In this document: one piece after another, positions 4,599-43,500 of the stretch
How positions within the stretch are numbered: the first letter of the stretch is position 1
Layout: the number at the start of each line of letters is the position of its first letter
Assembly (NCBI RefSeq): GCF_032854445.1
Contig: NC_088307.1
Span: forward strand, 29,480,484-29,544,483
Source of the DNA: Liolophura sinensis
Taxonomy: Eukaryota > Mollusca > Polyplacophora > Chitonida > Chitonidae
Reading direction: 5' to 3'
Length of the DNA: 64,000 nt
The notes under the pieces: model-generated
Databases searched by the model: none
Told to the model about the DNA's origin: nothing
Seen by the model: the letters and a program-made list of their open reading frames with translations, nothing else
Program-made: the position numbers and the translations under genes

Positions 4599-7500
4599 GT
4601 GAGATTTGTTATGTTGTTTCTTATACTGTTTATCTGAATTCTTTGCACTCTGTTTAATGAAAAATTGCGAATTTCTTTAAGGAAGTTATATGTGAAATAT
4701 ATTTTATGTTATTCTGAGATCGCCTTGTTACTCATACATGTTATACAACACTGAGCGAGATGCAGTGGCTTTTGGCCCCATACCGGTACCTTATTTGATG
4801 TTGTTGGACTGTGGCGGCTGGATTCAGATGTTTATCCGTTTTGGTTGACGAATAATATACAAATGTCTGTTTCGAGGCATAGATGCAATAACTCGGACTC
4901 ACAGGGTGTTGGTCAACCTCAGCCTCGGTAAGGGATTTTCAAAGCGCCCTGCCTCAATTATTCTCGGGGACTGGTCGCTATGTAATGGCTCCATGGTTCC
5001 GTCCTAATTTCTTAACCCTTTATATCCTTTCATAGTTCTTTGACATCTTGTGTTGAACATTGTTTTGTAAATTCGTCTCGTTCATTTATTTATCTATTTG
5101 ATTGGTGTTCTACGCCTTAATCAAGAATCGTGTCGTTAATATTGACCTGGAACATCTTTTATCGATTGGAAACGGGCATATGAATGTCAGTTACGAAACC
5201 TAGCTTATCAACTGTCTTTCAAACAGCATTCACCTTGCCTCATTATGACGTAATTGCCGTCCACAAATATGGCGTAATTCGTCTTCTGCCAACATGGTGT
5301 ATTTCGTCTTCCACCAACCTTGGCATAATTCGCCTTCTACAAATATGACGTAAATCACATCCAACGATATGACGTAGTTCGTCTTCCACAAATATGACGT
5401 AATTAATGGAATATTCACTTATGAGAAGTTAAATCTGACAGCTTTACGCGTTCATTGTGTTCACAAAAGCCCAATATGTAGACGTGTGGCCGGTGTTGAT
5501 CTCATTTGGCAATCATCTGTCTGTTCTCGCCTTCTGCTGTAAGCATTAAATTGATTGGATCTGGGTATTCTTATTATTTATATGCAATCTGCCACATGGA
5601 TGTGTCCCCGAAAACACTCTACACAGGGCATTCCGTCATTTGATATGACTGACCTGGAGTGTAGCAGGCCAGTAAACAATGGCATGGCGAAGATGTCGTC
5701 AATCCAGGTAGACAGAGAAGGCGGTGAGACATTTCCTAAACCTGTAGAATACTTGATTTTCATATTTGGGAACCTCCGTGACCTAGTTCATAGCATGCCA
5801 GTGTTTATCAACTTCAGCCACCTAGGAACCTCCATCCCATGCGGTCGAGTTCAAGTCCATTTCATACTATCTTCCTCTGCGGTCGTCAGTCTAAAGGTCT
5901 GTCAGCAGCAGCCTGCGAGTGGTCGTGGGTTTCCCCTTAGGTCTGCCCTGTTTGATTCTCTCGCCATTGCATATATGATCTATATCTGCGAACGGCGTAA
6001 GACAGTAACTTAAGAACAGTGTAAAAATAAATCCATCACATTGACTGTACAAACCAGGTTTGGCTACATGACTAATAACTTCTTTCAATGTTACCAAGAT
6101 ATGCAGAAATTAGAAAATAAAATTTAAAAACCATGGCAATATCAAAGATTGACATTTCCAGGTTGTGAACTACCAAACATTCCCAACACGGGAGAGCTTG
6201 AGAGTGACAGCAAACCTGATCAAGATGGCCGATACCCTGAGTACAGCTCCCTGTTTATCCGTTGTTTGCCGGGATACGAGCTCTTGGGCACAGACATGCT
6301 GTTTTGCCTCCGTGACAGTACATGGGATCCACTTCCTGGTGATGTACAGTGTAAAGGTATCCTAACCACTGTAATTTGTCAGACGATTTCAAAGTAACCC
6401 GATGCTATCAAGATAGCCGATAGTTTCAAGGTAACCCGATAGTTTCAAGGTAACCCAATGGTTTCAAAGTAACCTGGTGGTTTCAAGGTAAGCCGATGGT
6501 TTTAAGATAACCCAATGGTTTCAAGGTAATCAGACGGTTTAAGATAACCAGACGATTTTGTAATAAACATAATCGAAGATAACGGGAATATATCGGAGAC
6601 AAGGCGCTTACCTGTTTGTCCTGAACTAGTATCAATATCTGGCAAACAGCATGTAAATGGAAAGCACGAGTGGGATGAGAATAAATGTCCTAAACTTTTT
6701 ATTTACTCTCGATAATTGCATGATTTCTTTCAGGAGGTCTATATATACGTCCTATTTCGGCACATGAAATAAAACTTGACTTTCTTTGTGTCTGTCAGAA
6801 TCTGGATTAAAGTGTGCGGATGCTGACATCCCTGTGGGTGGCTCTGTTTCTGGGGGCAGGGACGAGGGGGACAGAGCGATATACTCTTGTGACAACCACC
6901 TTATATTGGTGGGGAACGAGCATAGAACATGCCAAGGAGGAAAGTGGCAGGGGAACATGCCTCATTGCGACAGTGAGTACAGGATCATAGTACACACGTA
7001 TGTAACGAGAGGCCAGTGACAAGGGAGCGTTCTCCCGTTGTGACCGTAAGTACTAGATCATAGCGCACACGTATGTAACGAAAGGGCGAGGGGCAAGGGA
7101 GCATTTCTGCAGTGTAACCATATGTACTGGATCACAGTGCACACATATGTAATGAGGGGGCGAGTGACAAGGGATCATTCCCCCAATGTAACCGTAAGTA
7201 CTGGATCACAGTGCAGACATATGTAACGAGAGGCCAGTGGCAAAGGGAGCGTTCTCCCATTGTGACCGTAAGTACTAGATCATAGCGCACGCGTATGTAA
7301 TGAAAGGGCGAGGGGCAAGGGAGCATTCCCCTGGTGTAACCGTGAGTACTGGATCACAGTGCTTACATATGTAACGTGGGGGCGAGCGCCAGAGGAGCAT
7401 GTCTCGCTGTGACCGTGAGTACAGGATCATAGCGCACACGTATGTAATGAGTGGATGTGTAACAGGGGAGCATGTCTCACTGTGACCGTGAGTACAGGAT

Positions 7501-10500
7501 CATAGCGCACACGTATGTAATGAGTGGATGTGTAACAGGGGAGCATGTCTCACTGTGACTGTGAGTACAGGAGTACAGGATCATAGCGCACACGTATGTG
7601 ATGAGAGGGTGTGTACCAGGGAAACATGTGGCACTACGACCGTAAGTACAGGGTCATAATGAGGGAGGGAATGGCAGGAGGATTTCTCGTAATGTCCACT
7701 TTATTTTAATGCGATATTCTTCCGAAAGGGAATTTTCTGGGAAAGTGCAGCTAGGTGACGGTGCGGTAGAGATGTACTGTTTACCTGTACATCAATGTTC
7801 ATTACGTGATTAGTACATCTAGCGCTGGTTTTACAGGGGCCGTTCAGTGCGAGGACCCTGGGATCATAGCCAACAGCCAGAGGGTTGATCAGAAGCTGTA
7901 TAACCTGACAAACTTCGGCCCCGGGGACACGATCCAGTACCGCTGTAACCACGGGGAAGTCAGGCAGGCTGATCTGCTTTGCCTGAATAGGGGAGAGTGG
8001 AACCAACAGCCCCCGGTATGCCCCGAGAAAAAAGGTGAGTTGTCAACGTGTGATGAGGACGGGAAGTTTAACTTACATGAAAGTATTGATTTTCAGTGCC
8101 ATTTGCGTGGTAAATCTGTCAACTTCAACGCCAAAAGTTGATATCCCCTGACCTTTGTGCAATGTCACACCACAAAATGCAACATGTCAAAAAATCAACA
8201 TATCGCGACGACCATTTTGTTTTTAACTTTTGCTTCTGGAAATGAAGTCTTATGGTTGCCCCATATGATCTTACATTTTTCTCGAAAGACTACAGAAGAG
8301 TTTAGTTAAATTTATGTTTTAAGTTTCAAGAATATTAATCCGTAATGAGATCTAATGATGCATATAGTTTTTTTTGAGAAATGCTGAATTTGAGAAGATA
8401 GTTGTCAGTACCGTTTTTCATTCATTCCGTAGTGTTGTTTATCTGTACATATATTTTAGATGAAATCAACTTTTATGTGCCAAAGAGGTCACTTCGTAAT
8501 AACAAACTCTTTTTACTATCAAAAGCTCTGGAGAAATGTGTATTTTTTTTAATTTTTCGAACCTGTACACTTCCTAATTATTTTTAAATGACTCAAACGC
8601 AGGGATTTTAGGTCTAAGACACATTTAGATCGAAAGCGCAATTTAAAAAAAATTATTTAGCTTTTAGGTACTGTTTTGTTAGCCTTATTTCTTTATGTAG
8701 TTTTAGTTCTGCAGCATTGAATGTAGTACTCAGGTCTGTACCTGAACGAATGCCTGTTGGCCTTTTCTTATCAATACCTAAATGCATGTTTGTAGGCTTG
8801 GGGTTTAACGTCGTACTTAACAATATCAAATGACGACGAGGTGTACATATATGTATGTACATATAATGTGTATTCATGTGGCAGGGCGAGTACATGTCGC
8901 TAAACTGCTGCCGCCACTGAAGTATCATGTCAAAGACACACCACCCAGTCACATTATATTGCCACCATTCCAACCAGTCATGTTTCCTTGCCGTAGCCTC
9001 TCAGTGCCTAGCACCAAGCGAGGCAGCATCAAGTACCACTTTTAAAGTCCGTGATAAGACCCGATCTGGGTTTGATCCTGAAGCCTCCCAACTTCAAGGC
9101 GGAAGCTCTAACAATTACGCCAGGTGCCGAAGCGGTCAATATATAAATAAATGAATTAGGGTCGGTTTGTTGTAACGATACTTTTAATATTATACTGTAT
9201 TAATCAATCTAAAATCACTGTCAAAACAATAAACATTGAATCCATCCATAAACAGTCAGTTAATCATTCAGTCGATCTCTCGCACGCACACACGCACTCC
9301 GCCCACTCATTCGCTTATCCGCTCATTGAATTAATCAATCAATTACACTCTCACTCTCTCACTCTCTCACTCTCTTACTCCTTCATTCGCCCACTCAATT
9401 ACCCACTCACTTTCCTATCGACAGCCTCTTCCCCATGTGACGAACTGCAGCCATACCAGATGTGTCCTGACCCCGGGCCACCTCGTTACGGCTACCTGTT
9501 GAAGCAGGACACCGTCGTGGCGTGTTATGGACGCTATCCCCCCGGTCAAACCATCAAGTTCCGCTGTAACGACGGGTTTCTGTTCGTGAACAAACAGCCC
9601 ATCAATCGACTGACATGTCTGAAAGGAGGGTCATGGGACAGAGATCTCCCCATCTGCTACGGTAAATCATCTCCACTTTCTTCTCAGAAATGTCTTAGGA
9701 GTATTTGTTGTCCGTTATTTTTTATGCAGAACCGGTACATGCAATTGTCAACTTCAACTCCCCAAAACTGTCCAATGGTACTACAGGCGCACACCACCGT
9801 TAATCTCTTTTCCTTCTCCTTACAGTTAGGTAACACTGTGTCCCGATTCCAAAAATCTATCGCTCACGGTGAGTGCTCAACGCCGGTAATCTCTTGTTCT
9901 CCTTATAGGTCAGATAATGCTGTTGTTGTGTTTGCAGATGAAGGAATGAAGACAAACAACGATTTCAACGTCGATCTTATATTCTCGCCATCACAAACAT
10001 ACGCACTTGCACAGTCATGTGATCACAAATGTTATTACAAAAACATAACTGACAATTACACCAAACATACGAGAGAAGGACATTACATTTTCCCCTTCAG
10101 AATACAACTTAGTAGGACTTACAAATAAACAGAAAATGGCGTTATGGTTTAGAGTTCACAGTCCTGTAAGTATCTGGGTGGTCTTCTGTTTCGACTCGAG
10201 CGTCCGGTAGTTGCGACAGGATACTGTTGTGGATTTGGAGCACAATCCTTCGTGGATTCTAAAGTTGGGTCTTCCACTTGTAAATGTGATTCTCTGGGTT
10301 GTGTTTCTTGACGTGACAGAATACAACGTCTGGCAATCCATTTTGATGTCAGGTATTACTGTTCTATAACCACGGACAATGCACGAAACAATCCAAAGGG
10401 ATAACTCATGCTGGAGGTGGTGATATGTTCTCAGTTCTGTTGAAACATGATTAGGCCATCCATTTAAAACATAGAACTCGATCGCTGGCTGAATCATGCT

Positions 10501-13500
10501 TGAGATCTGGCTGGGTGATAAGACCATCGAGGTCAATTCTCAGAACGTCAGCCTTCCCTGTCGCCGAAGCGAACACTGTTTCATCGAGAGTGAGTCTACT
10601 GAGCATGTCTGCTACTTCATTCTTCTTTCCTCTGATATGTTCCACATTGAAGTTCTACTGAAGTAATCTGTCAGTGAATCTGTAGATCAAAGGTCTCTGC
10701 CCTGACCCAGATGTTGACAGTAATGCTTTCAGTGCTTCATGGTCTGTTCGCGAAGAAAATTTGCGACCGTGAGATACATATGCCAGTGTTCAGATGTTAA
10801 TATACAGGTAAGAGCCTCGCGTTCACTCGTGGAATATTTCCCCTCTGTAGGTCAGAGAGTACGGGCAGCAAAAGCCACAGGGCGTATATGGACATCCGAG
10901 ATTTGCGACAGTACTGCTCCTGCAGCGTGTCCTGAGGCATCTGATGTAACATAGGTTGGATAGGCAGGGTCAAAATGAGCGATTATTTTTGGCGTGGCAA
11001 TGCGCTGTTTCAGAGTGGTAAACGGATTAGCGTGCTCCTGTGCCCAGTTCCATGATTCAGTTTTCCGAAGTAACGTACAGGTTCTGCAATTTCGGCGTAA
11101 TCTGGTACAAATTTGAGGTAGAAATTGGTAGTACCAAGGAATGACTGAAGTTCCTTTGTGTTTGTAGGCACTGGGAGATACTGAATAGCTTTCACATTTG
11201 ATTCAATGGGCACTACTCCTTTGTATGAAATATTGTAACAGGCAAAGTCAACGGAGTTCTGTGAAAACTGGCACTTTTCGACGTTCAGTGTCAGGTTGTT
11301 CTCCGAAATACACTGCATGGCTTCTTCCAAGTTTTTGTCATGATCGCCATTGTCCTTTCCATGAACTATCACATCATCAATGAGATGTTTACAGCCTTTA
11401 CATCCGGACACAATCAGCCACAAAATCTTGTGGAAAGTACCCGGTGCTGAGTCCATACGGTATTCTGGTGTACTGGTACACGACATCATGAGAGATAAAT
11501 GCTGTCAGAGGTCTACTATCCTCGGTCAGGGGTATCTGTAGACAGCTAGGTCTGCGATCAAGTTTGGTGAAAACCCATGGAATTCAAGAGTGAGTTCCTG
11601 TGTGGACGGTAAAAGGTATTTGTCTAGTATAAGAGGTTTGTTGACAGGCCTTGGATCAACGCATAGTCAAATCTCTTTTTTTTTCGACGTGCGGTAACTA
11701 GGTTTGAAATTCATGGCGACGAATCGATTTTCTCCATTATGCCGGATTCCTCCAAACGTTTGATTTCTGCTGACACCTCTGGACGCACAGACAGGGGAAG
11801 TTGCCTCAGTTTCCGTGATACAAGTCCAACTGATGGGTCAACAGTTGGCCGGTGTGCGTATTTAGTGGCCTTTCCGAACAGGTGAACACTTGAGAAAACT
11901 GGAACGGAATGTCCACGGTCTGAATAACTTTGCCCTTATGAGTGACTGTAAAGCCTAACTGGGTAAAGGGATCAGTTCACATAAGATTGGCATCTTCTTT
12001 AGTGACGTAAAACAAAAAGTTCTTCAACATTTGATCGTCGTTTGCAACGTTCGAATTAAGAAACATCGAGAACAGGGATATGACCATTGTTGTACGTTAA
12101 CAGATTCTCAGGGATATCGGTCAATGAGTGCTGAGAAAAGTCCTCCTTAGACAGTATCTCACTGAGAATTAACACCTTGGTGCCCAAATTAGTGATTAAG
12201 GTAATATCCTGGCCGTTAATGCCCACACAACAGTGCTTAAATGTTCTTTGACACACTATAGATTGAGACATCTGTCTTATCCTCAGGGTTAAAATTTTTA
12301 CCTGTTTTGTATATCTACACATAAATCCAAAATGGCCACGCCGTCCACAGGAATCACAGTTTTGGTCATTTGCTTGACAATGCTGACTTCGAGTTTAGTG
12401 TGAGAAAGATCCACAGTTAGTACAGTGCTACTTGTGCTCATTAGAAACTTGGCAATGTTGTTGTTGTCGAGGCTTGTATGGCCGCTGTTTTACATCCTGA
12501 ACACTTTGAAGTGTTTTCTTTAATTCTTTAATGGCCATTTCAATTTGCGTGGCAAGTGTGACCGCTCTATGAAGGGTTGACGTGTCTGGTTCCATAAGTA
12601 GGAGTTCACGAATGCGTGGTGTGCTGGTTTTCTCGATAATTTGATTACGTATCATCTCGTCGTGAAGAATTTCAAATTTACAGGTAGATGGTAATTCATT
12701 GAGTTTAACTGTCTACTGTAAAACTGATTCACTAGGGCGCTGAGCTCTCTCCCAGAAACGCTGACGTTCTGTCATAGTGTGTGTATGGGGGCAAAATGAT
12801 AGTTCAAAGCACCTACCGCGTTTTCATACGAGTCTGTGTTTCCCAGGGCGAAGATGATACGTTGTCCTTCAATCCCAAGGCAGTGTATGAGAATTGAACG
12901 TTTCCGAGCCTCAGACACTTCCTCGCTGTTCAGTCCAGTGGCGGTTAAATATGTTTGAAAACAATCATATCCCAGCGCTTCTACGAAACGGGTGGGTCTC
13001 CTGGACTGGGTAGAAAGCCCGGAGGTGGTGGGAGGAGAGATTCAGCCATATATATGGTGTGCCTGTAGATGGAGGAAAGAAGACAGCGATTTCAAAGTCG
13101 ATCTTGTATTCTCGCCATCACAATCATACACGCTTGTACAGTCATGTGATCACAAAGGTTAATACAAAAACATAACTGACAATTATACCGAACATTTGAG
13201 AGTAGGGCATTGCATCTGTCTCCTGGCCCCAGATTTATGGCTCAGCGCCCTCCAGCGGTAATATGTTGTTCTTCTCCTTACAGACCAGGTAACGCTGTGC
13301 CCGTATCTCGGATCTATTGCTCACGGTGAGCGCTTACCACCGCTGATCTCTTGTCCTCCTTATAGGCCAGGAAGCGCTGTCTCCCAATTCCTTAAATCTG
13401 TCGCTCACGGTGAGCGCTCACCGCCTGTAACCTCTGGTTCATCACCTTACAGGCCAGTTTACGCTGTGCACCTATCTCGGAACAATTGCTCATGGTGAGC

Positions 13501-16500
13501 GCTTACCACCGCTGATCTTTTGTCCACCTGATAGGTCAGGTAGCGCTGTCTCCCAATTCCAGAAATCTATCGCTCACGGTGAGCCCTCACTACATGTAAT
13601 CCCTTGTCCTTCTCCTTTCAGTCCAGGTAACACTGTGTCCCGATCTCGGATCTATTGTTCAAGTTGAGTTCTTACCATCGGTAATCTCTTGTCCTCCTTA
13701 CAGGCAAGATAACACTGTGTCTCGATCCCAGATATATCGCTCATGGTAAGCGCTCACCACGGGTAATCTCTTGTCCTCTTCACAGATCAGACAACCCTGT
13801 GCCCCGATCCCGGATCTATCGCTCACGGTGAGCGCTCACCACCAGCCTTGGGCCTGGGCGTGTTGGAGGGAACTTCCATCAAATTTCAGTGCGATTATGG
13901 TTATAAAGTGGACGATCGATTTGATTGGTCAACAATGCGTTGTCTAGACAGCGGGCGTTGGGATGCGGACAAACCCACCTGTACAGGTAACCAGCTTGGT
14001 TTAGTTTAAATTATTTTAATTCTGTGTGTAATTGTGTGTGGCGTAGGTCAAACTTATGGACAGAAATGCAATCGTATAAGTTTATATATATATATACTTT
14101 ATCATTTCTCTCTGCAGATCCTTTCGCCTTGACTGAAGTTTGACCATCAATATGCAGATGTCATACCCTATTTCTGTGTTCGGCGCAGTTTAAACTTGAA
14201 ATGTTGCAAAAAGGAAATGCACTGGTCGGATATGAAAATGTGGCCTAAATACATTTCAAATTTGTCAATGTTTCGACGCTTTCCTATGGTCTTATGACAG
14301 AAATTATTCTATAATATAAACAAAGTACTTGTCAAATGTTTAATTTCTGTAGTCGGTTTTTTTTACCTGTAGGCTTCTTTTACTTATCTGCATTATCAGA
14401 CATACTCGCTACCAATGCTGCCTTTAATACTTTTTTCCAATCCATGATGGACTCCACATGCTTGTTTTCAACGCAGGAAAACTCATTCCCTTGACCAAGG
14501 TGATGATTGCCCCCAAACCAGTGGCATGCTGGATAGAGTCTATTATCAAACGGACTGATACCCAAATATTGATAACTTACTATGCATCAGTTGGTCCACA
14601 GTCATTATATAAAGTGATGACTGTATGAATTTATGCAAATACTAACGTTTTACAATGTATGAGATGTAGTAAACATTGAAATTAAGGGCATTTTTGTTGT
14701 GGTAGCTTTAACATTGGACAGTATTTCTGAGTAATGAACAGCAGGGTCTCAATATCCAAGATACACATTGTTAAGTTAAAACATGGTTTGAAAAAAAATT
14801 ACAAAACTGTTACGGTAGTTATTCCTTTGTATCGTGGAAAATTAGTTTCGAAAATCGAAGCTCCTTGTATGTTATATCTGCCTTTTTACCGCAGAGTTAA
14901 TATGTCCTCGACCTCCAATCCCGGCGAATGGCAGAGTTCTCACAAAATATGAGCGCAAAACGGAATTCAAGGTCAACGAATCTGTGACCTTTCTCTGCCA
15001 GGAAGGCTATCAATTGGAAGGCCCACATGTCCTTACCTGTATCCAAGACGTACTCGGATGGGATCATCTGCCTCCGGTGTGCAAAGGTACATTTGATACG
15101 TCTATGGTTAGCACAATCCTCATCGCTGTCATTTTCTATATTGTCGTCATATTCAACAGCGCTGTGATCATCATTATCATCTATGTTAAAATAAATACAA
15201 TTCCTGATATCATCATTAGCGTTATTGCCATTAGCAGAACCATTTCTGTTGTCGTCGTAATCATCATTATCATTATCAATAATAGCATCAGCAATAGCGT
15301 TGTCATAAACAAAATTTTTACACCTATCATGTAATGACCCAGGAGCCTCTCACCAATGCGGTCGCTGTGAGTTCAAGTCCAGCCCATGCTGGCTTCCTCT
15401 CCAGCCGTAAATGGGAAGGTCCTGCAGCAACCTGCGGATGGTTGTGGGTTTCTCCCGGGCTGTGCCCGGTTTCCACCCACCATAATGCTTGCCGCCGTCG
15501 TATAAGTGAAATATTCTTGAGTACGGCGTAAAACACCAATCAAATAAATAAATAAATACACCTCTCATCATCAGTATTGTTTTCATTAGCATAATTTTTA
15601 CACCTGTCATGATCAGTGATGTTTTTATTAGCATAATTTTTACACCTATCATCTTCAGTATTGTTTTCATTTACAGAATTTTTACTCAGTGATCATCGGT
15701 GATGTGTGTAATTTGCTACTATTATGCACTTACATGAACAGTCAGAATAAAAAACTAACTAAAAAACTATCTACACTATCTAAAAAACTAACTATCACAC
15801 CCTAGTCGCTACTCTGGTTTTACCCTGGGGTCAGAATAAAAAACTAACTGAAAAACTATCTAAACTATCTAAAAAACTAACTATCACACCCTAGTCGCTA
15901 CTCTGGTTTTACCCTCTGTGCTCTAAGCCCTTTATGGTTTTGTATTCCTACATAAACCAGGATTCTGTTGGTGGGCTAAGCATCCCCAAGGCCTGGTCAC
16001 ATTACATTGTTTTAATGCTATTGTGTGTTAAATGTGATGACAATACAGCATTTGAGTAATTCTAGACAAGCGACGTCTGATAAATTGCAATTAACATCAC
16101 TGTATGTTTAAAAGTAATTTTGCTTAAGCCATGGTGCTAAGAGGCGTATAATTTGCTACTATTTATGCATTTACATAAACAGTCAGATTAAAACCCTGAT
16201 GGTGAATTGGCACTGGCCGTGTTTCACCGATTACGTGCAAGCATTTCCCACCAATCACACTGTCGTTACTGCTCCGGTTTTCTCTCTGTTAATTGTATTA
16301 TTATCAATATCAGAACAATTGCCTTCGTCAAAGTGGTCAGTATCGTCATTGTCGCCAACAACAGCGTCATTCCCAATATCAAAATCATTCTTGTTGCTAC
16401 AGTTGTCAATATCGCCATCATTACCGTCGCAAAGAGCAGTATTACTAGCAAAAGCGTGTATTCAACCATTAACATCAGCACTACTATTATTGCTGTGGTG

Positions 16501-19500
16501 ACAGTCATTGTTGCTGGCGCCGTAGAGTCAACAACATCATCAAAATCACCATTAACCTGGTCATCAACATCATCAGAACTAGCATTATGACGACCGGTAC
16601 CGTCACTAGCTGCAATGGTCACAATGTCAACAATAGCGTTTTGAGTAAAGTCTGTGTATCTAATGTCATTAACACAGCTGTACGTATCATCGTCATAATC
16701 ATCATGTATGTCAACAGCAACAGTATCAGGAATGGTGTTGTTCTGGTTGCTATCATCGTCATAATCATCATGTTTGTCAACAGCAACAGTATCAGGAATG
16801 GTGTTGTTCCGGTCACTATCATCGTCATAATCATCATGTTTGTCAACAGCAACAGTATCAGGAATGGTGTTGTTCTGGTCACTATCATCGTTAGGATTAT
16901 CATGATTTACACCGCTACTGTTGTCACAAGCATCATTATTGGTTTTCCCCAAGATGGTTTTTGTCATATGTTGAGCGTCACATTGACCAACGTCATGTCA
17001 TTCAAAAGTGAGAAATATCAGATTTATAATTAAAGTTTCCCATATTTGCGCAGTCACAGATCCAATTGACATACCCATATCCACATACCCTTGGATTAGG
17101 AAGCCCCGAGTGACAGAACCCACACCTCGTGAGTCCATAAGACAGACCACCACCGACTCGGCACGCGGGTACCCTCGATCTACAACACCAGGCGACTTGG
17201 GCACATTTACAGCTACTCCTGACTCCCGGCACACGACAAAACTACCAAGCAAATCAGACAACCGACCATCACTGACATGGACGGTTTCCATAGCTACGCC
17301 TACCATATCAGAAAACGCACCTAACCAGCCACCGCTAAGAGTGACGCCTACAACACCGGCACCTACGAGAGCGACGCTTATAACACGGTCGCCTAGGAAA
17401 GCGACGCCTACCGCACCGACACCTACGACGCCGGCGCATACGACACCGACGCCTACGACACCAGCGCATACGACGAGAGGTTCACAAACTACACCAAGAC
17501 GAACTCAAAGACCGGCACCAAAACCAACACCAAATCCTGCTAAAGGCGAAGGGCTGAAAGTCATAACGACGGAGACAAAACCCGGTGGGGGAGAAGATCT
17601 TGACCATGGGAACCGAAAGCAGAATCCTGTCTGTAACGATCCGGGGTACGTCCGGAACGCCGATCGGACCCCAGTTTTCGATCAAGATGAGTACAAGGGG
17701 TTCGATGTCGGTAAAGTCATCAAAGTGGTCTGCAAAGAAGGATTTGCTTTTGAGGAGGAATTTGCTGGTCTTATATATTGCCGTGCCAGTGGCAAGTGGG
17801 ACAAGTTGCCACGATGTGTTTGTAAGTTTCTTTTTTTTCTTTTCCATGAAAACAAGCGGTGTGTCAAACTTGGCGCAGACTTTCAAAGTAGGCGTGGAAG
17901 TGATTATGTGTGCCAGGGTGTGCACGAGAGTATGCACGAGAGTGTGCGCGAGAGTGTGCGCCAGTAAATGTCACGGTGTATTTTTATATGTCAATGTGTA
18001 TAAGTCAGTAAAAGTTTGCGGGTGCACGGATGACTTAACGCGGTGTTCAAATGTGGGCAACTCACGTGATGAACTAGTGTGTGAATTCCCGCATCTGCGA
18101 TTCACATAATCAGTACATTCCAATAAACACACATCTGGCTACGCTGAAATTCGAACTGTTTTATACATGGGCACAAGTGTGCTCGATTCACACAATCACA
18201 CTGCCCAAGGTTTGTTTACCTTTCGCGAACACTTCTAAAAATTGAAATTGTTGGATGTTTTAGATCTCCATGAGCTTTGTTGTAGATTTAACAAGGAAAC
18301 AAGGAAAAAAAGTATCCACGGAGTTACGACTAACTGCCATTGACATTAAGTCTTAGTGAAAATCGCTAAAACAAATCAATAAATAAGCATAAAATAATAC
18401 TCAACAGCTCGGCCAGTTATTCTATGAATCGCTTAATGCATTCATCAATCAATCCATTTCAGCGTCGTCTAACAGACTGTGTGTAGACCCAGGTAAGGTT
18501 GACAACGCCATTAGATCCCCTGAATTTGTGGCAGCTGACGATCTGTTTGCGGTTGGTGAGACTATAGATTTCATCTGTAACCATGGCTACTCAGCCGGGG
18601 CCTTCTACGATCAAATCAGCCTTACATGCTTGGAGAACGGCTCGTGGGATGGTGTGCTGCCGGTTTGCTCGGGTAAGTACTGAATACGAAAAGTTGTGGC
18701 AAGTACGATAGATATACAGCACAGGAATGACTTGGTAGTGCCTTTGTGTTTATTTATTTATTTATTTGATTTGTATTTTACGTCGTTGTCACTGTAGGAA
18801 CTATTTGATTCGATATGTTTACTTTACTTGTAGTACCAGTAATGCACTAAATCGTTTGTAGTTGTGGTGAGGTGACCACACATTACTAGGTCTGACCATT
18901 AAACGTATTACGGGCGAGGGCCATAATTTCCAACAAACATTTATGGGGCAATTTCTGTCTTTTGTTACAGATCTGGCTTTAATGTTCTGGGTTTGTCCTG
19001 TGAACTAATTATCAAGTTGTCAAATTAAGCGAATGACTAGCAATGTGAAGGGGAGCCATCTTCTTGATATTTCCGTATCAATCGAACATTTAACGTTTCT
19101 CCGAAGTCAAACATTCAACAGAGTTTGCGCATGTTGTTTATTGTTGTGTACAGGCCTAGTATTATTTTGATGATTTAGGTTTCCCCCGATCTCTGTCCAG
19201 TTTGAACCCACCATGATGCTAGCCGCCGTCGTATAAGTGAAATACTCTTAAGTACAGGGTAAAACACCAATCAAATATATTGATGATGATTTAGGCAGAT
19301 TTTATTAACATGTGGAAAAAGGTCAGCAAGTTTCTAGAGTATCTTTAGCAACAAGTGGAAGAGTATTAACATGAAGAAGAATAGTAATTACATAGTATGT
19401 GTATGTTTACGGGCCAGCCTGCGGTCGACTGGTTAAGGTGTTCGCTTTTCACTTGTTATGTCAGACAAGACGTGTTCTCAGTTTCATTCCCAAGCAGGGA

Positions 19501-40500: not shown

Positions 40501-43500
40501 TGCCAAGTGCAGTTGTTTCACAGGGACTGTACTAGCCCTGGCCACTGTCATTTAAGTCAACGTATAATGTTCTGCATGACCTGTAAGCTACGAATGAATA
40601 TATAAATTAAATAAATTTAATTATATGATAGATATATAAAGTTCATTACATATTCATAAATGTAGTAGTCTGTGATACATTGCACGTAATGCATTTCACG
40701 CAAGTTGCATGGCTGTTCCTAGAAGGAAGAAAAAACTGAAGATGAGGCTTTCTAGAGATGAATATCAACCAACGCATCTCTTTGCAGTCATCATAATTTA
40801 GCTGTTTCTTGTGAGTATATATAGCACTATGCTGTCTCAGGTGAATATCTAAACTAGATCGGGGTTACAGTCTTTTGCAGTCACAAATGAATATGACCAC
40901 CGTCTAGCTGCCTCAAGAGTCTACGGCCTTCAAACAAAAACTAAACACTGTAAACATGTACAGGTTACTAATCGAAATCGAAACACAAGGTCTCTTTTGG
41001 TAATGAGTTAAGTATATTTGGCTTTAATGTTACTTACTTTACTGTACATTACGCCTGACACTGTTAGTCGTATGTGCGCACGCCCACAAGGACGCTTCAC
41101 TGGCTACCGGCATTCCACCAGGAAGTAGAGACCTATTAATACCAGATTACTCGGCATATAATGAAAGAGACATGAAGCACTAGTCACCATGACAACGTCC
41201 ATCACCGCCATCTGACGGCTATGATGCTACTGAGGGGAGCTCACCCTTTCCCTTTTCCCGCTTTGATCTGAAATATTCATGTTCACGAACAGCTGCGTAG
41301 ATGGCTTTCATGAAGGATCTGTAAAACAGCACTTGTCCGCACATATTCAGATGAACGCCCTCTTTAAGCAGGATGTTTTTAACAGGCTCCATCATCTTTT
41401 TATGTTTCCAAAATGTCACCGTTTTTTCCTTGCGAAGCCGACGGTTGATTTCTAGAATTTTCTTGTTATAGTCCGCCACAGAAATACGCCTCGTGGCCTG
41501 TCGACGGAACAGCTGGCTAAAATACACCTTGAAGACTTGGAATTTGGTTTTTAGGATACGTACAAAGCCGAGGATCTCTGCACAAATGTCTGAGGAGGTT
41601 TTGGTGGAGTCTGCGTCATTGCTGCCGATGTGTACGATGACGACATCCGGTCTAGTTTCCTCTAACAGGCTTTCCAGATGGCTCGAATTTCTCAGTGTAG
41701 CCACTTTAGCGCCCCCTATGCCGAGAAAGTGCACATCTTGCCCAGTGCCGAAGTCTAGCCTGGAACAAGGGAAGCAACCTTGTAGGATACTGCTTTCTAG
41801 CCTGTGAATATGACTGCTTCCCGTGAGCAGAATTCTCAGGGTTGGTCCTGGGTTTTTCTCTCCCCTCTCTTCGGTTGTTGTCAGCTTTTGCCGTGAAACA
41901 CAGAAACAAACATACATATAACCATATTTGTAGGACTAATAGTTTTGCTTATTACGGGACAGGAAGCAGCTGGCATTTTCACGTTTTCACTATTATATTA
42001 CGTGGTACGTAATTCGCAAATGCGTCAAATAACACTGAAGAACACTGAAGAAGGTTACGTTGAAAACATGAATACAAATTTACCAAAAAATTTAAAAAAA
42101 AAAAGAAGAAAAAAAAACAACAACAAACAAATAAACAGAACAACAACAATACACAAAGTGTATAATATGTATAGCTTACGTGCTCCTTAATCTCATTTTC
42201 TTCAGGGTTCCCCGATGACGTCAAATCCCGAATCTGGTTTGATATGTACCTATCTGATGTAATTTTTAGTTCCTGCCAGAATGAAATGGAAGATATTTTG
42301 GGAGAATACATCTGGTGCTGAACGGTTTGATTTGTATTTCCCTTGATTTGTGTAGCGGTTCACAAAATGGGATGGAGTTAAAGCAAACAATAGATACGGT
42401 CATGAAACTAGAGGTCATGATAATACATGTCAGGAGACTACAGGTACATATAAAGAAACCATTCATCACGAAAATATACGTCTTGCATTCAGCCACACAC
42501 CATCAAACTATACATCATAAAACCACACATAGTAAAACTATATACCATAAAACCACACACCATCAAACTATACACCATAAAACCACACACCATCAAACTA
42601 TACACCATAAAACCACACACCATAAAACTACACACCATGAAACAACACACCATCAAACTATACATCATAAAACCACACACCATCAAACTATACATCATAA
42701 AACCACACACCACCAAACTATACAACATAAAACCACACACCATCAAACTATACACCATAAAACCACACACCATAAAACTACACACCATGAAACAACACAC
42801 CATCAAACTATACATCATAAAACCACACACCATCAAACTATACATCATAAAACCACACACCACCAAACTATACACCGTAAAACCACACACCATCAAACTA
42901 CATACCATAAAACCACACACCATCAAACTACACAACATAAAATTACACACAATAAAAGTACACACCATAAAACCACACACAATAAAACTATATACCATAA
43001 AACCACACACCATCAAACTATACACCATAAAACCACACACCATAAAACTACACACCATCAAACAACACACCATCAAACTATACAACATAAAACCACACAC
43101 CATCAAACTACATATCATAAACTCACACACCATCAAACCATACATCATAAAACCACACGCAAAACTATATACCATAAAACCACACACCAACGAAATATAC
43201 AACATAAAACCGCACGCAATCAATCTATATACCATAAAACCACAAATCATCAAACTCATACCATAAACGCACACACCATCAAACTATACACCATAAAAGC
43301 ACACGCCATAAAACCGCACAACCCTGTACCACACACCACAAAACCACATCCCATGAAACAGGTTTGTACTGAGATCACCAGATATTTACTAATTTATGAC
43401 TTACATTTTTTCCATCTTTATGTTCCTCTGGGTTCCTATCTGAAGCCATGTTTCAAACTATTTGTTGATTAAAGAGCAGTTTCTGAAATACATATTTAGA

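Follow-up and report, generated by a model that had tools for sequence, protein, structure and literature searches.

Splice-junction minisatellites in lancelets and in a chiton gene

Minisatellite-like duplications of intron/exon boundaries have been described in the globin genes of amphioxus, where they are called "mirages", a name taken from earlier work on Adh3 (PMC3087553), and mirages have been reported in TnC and PGBD5 as well (PMC3902484). The affected amphioxus genes are Adh3, BflGb6, BflGb9, TnC and PGBD5, with retinol dehydrogenase and presenilin cited as having similar structures (PMC3087553, PMC3902484); mirages have been proposed as a source from which new introns could arise (PMC3087553). 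Here, we analyze a tandem array that runs across the acceptor junction of exon 6 in a multi-CCP gene of the chiton Liolophura sinensis, located in a 64,000-nucleotide stretch of DNA (contig NC_088307.1, positions 29,480,484 to 29,544,483), hereafter the window. By comparison with the amphioxus cases, this array appears to be of the same kind, and it is very probably a mirage-type minisatellite that was born across a splice junction and is tolerated by the spliceosome, rather than a working set of mini-exons.

The host gene lies on the forward strand and contains 11 CCP matches between 6164 and 21410 of the window, along with a weak 12th match at 8031-8102, all detected with a hidden Markov model (HMM) built from nine of the gene's own CCP matches. 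The original prediction treated it as a complement gene, an identity that is not established, given that domain searches on the gene matched CCP domains only. Intron 5 (9662-13785; 4.1 kb) follows CCP exon 5 (9425-9661; HMM match 9463-9657), which ends in phase 1 (ACG|GTAAAT) and the predicted start of which is the best-scoring AG. The intron carries the array, which continues into the authentic CCP exon 6 (13786-13986; HMM match 2e-23). In total, nine units of 83-86 bp (~84 bp), all on the forward strand, can be aligned between 9787 and 13832: U0 (9787-9872), U1 (9873-9923), U2 (13245-13329), U3 (13330-13413), U4 (13414-13498), U5 (13499-13582), U6 (13583-13666), U7 (13667-13749) and U8 (13750-13832). 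The last of these, the exon-like part of which is the head of exon 6, comprises what is presumably the authentic acceptor along with the initial 42 nt of this exon. The eight upstream copies, where at least seven had been predicted, include seven complete ones (U0 and U2-U7) and U1, which is interrupted by a decayed long terminal repeat (LTR) retroelement. Because this element sits inside U1, the array, originally placed at 9780-13986, consists of genuine units but falls into two blocks, from 9787 to ~9923 and from ~13225 to 13832, with U0 cut off from the other units; the position of the break in U1 is approximate, and the remnant beyond the element, delimited by eye, spans ~13225-13244. Tandem Repeats Finder (TRF), used with a threshold of 50, scores the segment 13268-13843 at 627 for a period of 169 and at 397 for a period of 82.

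An acceptor AG is present in all nine units, and among the seven complete upstream units, six have a donor GT 42, 43 or 44 nt further on. The exon-like part is 42 nt long in U2 (acceptor G at 13283, donor GTGAGC at 13326), U4 (13452, GTGAGC at 13495), U7 (13703, GTAAGC at 13746) and U8, 43 nt in U0 (9825, donor GTGAGT) and 44 nt in U3 and U5; U6 (13621) kept the 42-nt frame and lost the GT, and U1 has its acceptor G at 9908. The unit alignment agrees with the first exon bases previously assigned (13284, 13453 and 13704), with the position of the internal donor (13828) and with the range of 42-44 nt given for the copies; as a correction, U0 is 43 nt long and runs into an in-frame stop.

In the copies, the stretch that resembles a donor and an intron start reads GTGAGCGCTCACCACC, with variants; in exon 6 it codes for the residues GERSPP, and the donor motif of the copies corresponds to the GTGAGC found at 13828 in the coding sequence. 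Therefore, each unit combines ~25 nt of intron end with ~58 nt of exon start, and just past that point the copies diverge from exon 6. The donor motif was carried along with the exon head rather than added to form mini-exons, and its phase 1 position, which makes the 42-nt copies symmetric, requires nothing more than a one-in-three coincidence. The array occupies a single place in the genome: DNA searches of this one genome with the array returned two matches, both within the array itself and one of them ending at 9923, and searches with exon 6 returned only exon 6 itself and unit U2.

Read at the level of sequence, the exon 6 array displays the hallmarks of mirages, namely, tandem minisatellite-like repeats, a unit that spans a predicted exon/intron boundary, and AG and GT dinucleotides kept in many but not all copies, as is also the case in amphioxus. 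The mirage of amphioxus Gb6 joins the 3' end of an intron to the 5' part of an exon, exactly as the exon 6 array does; in Gb9, the donor-side boundary is duplicated, as in four further arrays of the chiton genome considered below (at 6969 in the same gene and at loci L024, L035 and L079); and in PGBD5, both sides are present. The statement in the original prediction that no case was known in a complement gene should be read alongside the same kind of structure in other genes of amphioxus. The differences are that the host is a mollusc rather than a cephalochordate, that the exon 6 units are more diverged than those of Gb6 (0-19%, compared to 18-33% for 27 of 28 unit pairs here), and that the exon 6 array is split by a retroelement.

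Outside the cephalochordates, the only similar case known to us is the donor minisatellite of human IFI6 (6-16). Reportedly, in work by Turri et al. in 1995, this minisatellite supplies several splice donors, and the mRNA is said to make use of the additional ones. What IFI6 shares with the chiton gene is the presence of repeated usable sites at a splice junction; its nearest likeness is the donor array at 6969-7572, whereas the exon 6 array lies on the acceptor side. The dual-specific splice sites of the human tandem-repeat genes UBC and VCX3A (PMC10809524) resemble the exon 6 array in that splice motifs are multiplied by the tandem repeats, which may give rise to introns; however, in those genes one AGGT within the coding repeats doubles as donor and acceptor, whereas here the two motifs are separate and 42-44 nt apart. 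As far as we could find, all published cases named mirages come from lancelets, and a search that covered part of the literature, including work on molluscs, gastropods and abalone, found no molluscan splice-junction minisatellite. The accessible portions of the reports on an abalone intron minisatellite (PMC6905558), on prawn lectins with variable tandem repeats (PMC7536079) and on Conus genes (PMC3862624) do not mention or describe a minisatellite at a splice junction.

Age and conservation of the copies

The retroelement occupies 9924-13224 on the reverse strand (the outer edges are approximate), with LTR-like direct repeats at 9956-10088 and 13083-13215 and reverse-strand Pfam matches to RVT_1 (in 11010-11504) and RT_RNaseH_2 (in 10852-11202). 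Because units stand on both sides of the element, the array must already have reached several units in length before the insertion. The LTR-like repeats differ at 23 of 156 sites (0.147; Kimura two-parameter distance 0.167). The eight complete units (the interrupted U1 being left out of this count and of the column counts below) differ pairwise by 0.095, in the closest pair, U3 and U5, to 0.333, and 27 of the 28 pairs are more diverged than the LTR-like repeats. The array very probably originated by tandem duplication across the junction of intron 5 and exon 6 and would then have grown by slippage or unequal exchange, with unit pairs probably copied together, as suggested by the alternation of unit types A and B and by the 169-bp period.

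Conservation is no higher in the exon-like parts of the units than in the intron-like ones, the mean number of deviating copies per column being 1.29 and 1.15, respectively, across the eight rows. That exon-like and intron-like columns deviate alike supports a minisatellite origin, as do the anatomy of the units with its break point and the confinement of the array's matches in this genome to the array itself. When the observed changes were permuted among sites with the same base, the reduction of nonsynonymous changes was not significant (P 0.105, 0.14 and 0.20), which points the same way. Further support comes from the layout shared with the Gb6 mirage, for which reverse transcription PCR suggests regular splicing (PMC3087553).

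Several observations weigh against this interpretation. All nine acceptors and six of the seven donors persist even though 27 of the 28 unit pairs differ by 18-33%. Joint retention of AG and GT is borderline (two random adjacent column pairs being equally well kept with P 0.051, after one gap in U0 was shifted by hand). In nine of the ten pairwise comparisons among the five 42-nt copies, including exon 6, the ratio of nonsynonymous to synonymous substitution rates (dN/dS) is below 1 (0.27-0.71; the remaining value is 3.62). Furthermore, by weight-matrix scoring, four of the eight upstream acceptors score above the exon 6 acceptor, and all six surviving upstream donors (8.1-9.7) score higher than the true exon 6 donor (7.2). 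Overall, the selection results tend slightly toward constraint but fall short of it.

Possible splicing outcomes of the array

A 42-nt exon flanked by gaps of 40-43 nt is hard to define and to splice, and for this reason the upstream copies would be mostly ignored. Most likely, the mRNA joins exon 5 directly to the last copy, which opens the complete CCP exon 6; occasional use of the upstream copies as decoys would, for the most part, shift the frame. We enumerated the possible splice chains under three conditions: no more than four donor-bearing copies per chain, no terminal use of the U1 acceptor, and a minimum intron length of 60 nt. Only four of the 57 chains are open and in frame, namely, normal splicing and the inclusion of U2, of U4 or of both, and the same four remain when the intron limit is lowered to 42 nt and the number of products rises to 71; that so few chains are open, one of them the normal one, again favors a minisatellite. 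U7 leaves a gap of only 40 nt to exon 6, U6 lacks a donor, and inclusion of U0, U3 or U5 would break the frame, in agreement with the original prediction for the 44-nt type. Extension of an exon from the acceptor of a complete upstream unit leads into a stop in all seven cases.

Among the alternatives, the one that fares best, although still unlikely, is that the copies act as decoys with an effect, competing with exon 6 and thereby lowering or tuning its correct splicing, chiefly because frame-shifted products would be degraded; such a role would be compatible with a minisatellite origin. The decoy sites of the original prediction appear possible inasmuch as most copies carry good acceptors and donors: by the same matrix, upstream acceptors score 8.3-14.0, compared to 12.2 for exon 6, and the donor scores given above point in the same direction. 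These values were compared solely with the gene's own junctions, since the background set (146 donors and 142 acceptors) is contaminated by edges within multi-CCP open frames. Against such interference, very short exons and gaps are poorly recognized. In addition, amphioxus mirages are reported to leave regular splicing undisturbed (Adh3 and globins, PMC3087553; Adh and TnC, PMC3902484).

Use of the copies as optional cassette exons, with U2, U4 or both adding 14 or 28 residues before CCP 6, is improbable. The 14-residue cassettes proposed originally would be feasible for these two units, which are 42 nt long, open, in phase 1 on both sides and equipped with GTGAGC donors, and which yield open chains to exon 6, singly or together, with introns of at least 60 nt; the dN/dS values below 1 would also fit. 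However, in-frame inclusion is limited to these two of the seven complete upstream copies, the other five giving no open product (U7 being barred solely by the assumed minimum intron), and neither the column counts nor the permutation test indicates conservation of the exon-like parts. Moreover, each single cassette brings in one cysteine, so that the exon 6 stretch contains five cysteines instead of the normal four. We consider it slightly less probable still that U2 and U4 form a tunable insert of 0, 14 or 28 residues before CCP 6 in a molluscan genome where junction minisatellites recur. If they do, the two-copy form, with six cysteines, would restore an even number, and the array would represent a switch for protein length still in the process of forming.

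Hardly any probability attaches to the notion that the copies are recursive splice points that remove intron 5 stepwise. The intron is long, at 4.1 kb, and AG|GT occurs at the acceptor in two of the nine units and 3-5 nt beyond it in four, that is, in five units overall (U0, U1, U2, U5 and U6), which at best hints weakly at this part of the original prediction; but GTRAG follows in none of the nine, GTCAG, GTAAC or GTAGC being found instead, and most of the intron length is the retroelement, which is younger than the array. An assembly artefact, to which tandem repeats are prone, is just as implausible, considering that the units differ by 10-33%, unlike false copies of one unit, and that the array lies at a single place on a 30-Mb contig.

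Junction arrays elsewhere in the gene and the genome

The interpretation of the exon 6 array as a minisatellite tolerated by the spliceosome is further supported by the recurrence of arrays of the same type at other junctions, namely, the donor of exon 3 in the same gene and the loci L024, L035 and L079. The second array of the gene (6969-7572, forward strand) has a 74-bp unit that consists of the tail and donor of CCP exon 3 (6799-6972, forward strand), and nine GTRAGTA words, including the true exon 3 donor, are found between 6973 and 7642. Two of the 22 junctions of the gene (with the edges of exons 2, 8 and 11 approximate) lie in arrays, which fits the ~3 predicted from the 14% array coverage and likewise supports the minisatellite interpretation. 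No enrichment of arrays at junctions was seen among these 22, and nothing suggests that arrays seek out junctions.

We then surveyed the best-scoring 30 CCP, 30 kinase and 18 C-type lectin loci, out of 150, 138 and 120 matches, respectively. Two CCP loci within the window (L034 and L038) were dropped, leaving 28 CCP loci and 76 loci outside the window in total; several of these overlap or share one gene and so are not independent. Junction arrays were identified in two of the 28 CCP loci and in one of the 18 C-type lectin loci, all on the donor side. In L024 (1654-2232), the unit is 53 bp long, with 8 copies of CAGGTGAG, including the true donor, and the repeated exon tail additionally contains TTCCCCAG, an acceptor-like word; L031 reaches the same array, which was counted once. 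In L035 (701-1509), the unit is 87 bp long, and 14 of the 20 donor-like words, the presumed true donor among them, fall inside the array. In L079 (1268-1503), the array lies at a C-type lectin exon and has a 27-bp unit. A self-similarity test at both match edges of the 78 surveyed loci was positive in these same three. Near misses, which we did not count, include L021, where the array starts ~100 nt from the exon edge, and L078 and L081, where it starts 41 and 49 nt past the match. None of the 30 kinase loci has a junction array, although many of these matches are long open frames with no junction nearby; this result speaks against a high frequency of arrays everywhere. In L058, from the kinase survey, there is a short repeat inside the exon match. 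Coverage by TRF arrays amounts to 6.3% in the full set of 30 CCP loci, which includes the two from the window, 4.8% in the lectin loci and 1.9% in the kinase loci.

Taken together, there are five junction arrays in one molluscan genome, two in the focal gene, two at other CCP loci and one at a lectin locus, which would mean that the process extends beyond cephalochordates. Such arrays would serve as natural replicates for studying the choice that the spliceosome makes between near-identical sites, and whether arrays turn into introns.

In the window as a whole, tandem repeats detected by TRF make up 34% (21,630 of 64,000 bases). A 15/60-bp repeat at 17343-17474 lies in an open frame ahead of a CCP match and would code for a Thr/Pro-rich linker. 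The window also contains, at 41219-41935 on the reverse strand, an open frame of 238 amino acids that matches GDSL lipase/acylhydrolase. Elsewhere in the assembly, seven copies of COX1 are spaced ~15.5 kb apart on a 109-kb contig (C99), with an eighth on another contig (C632), probably reflecting a concatemer in the mitochondrial assembly; these frames contain in-frame TGA codons, as in animal mitochondria. A search for GFP-family genes, made to test amphioxus as the host, gave no match, a result of little weight given that the control genomes gave none as well. In contrast, and pointing to a mollusc as the most likely host, eight consecutive haemocyanin beta-sandwich matches lie within 12 kb of one contig, a haemocyanin type that we take to be molluscan, and one functional unit matches haemocyanins in the PDB, including keyhole-limpet KLH1, the best match being the seventh unit of 6r83.

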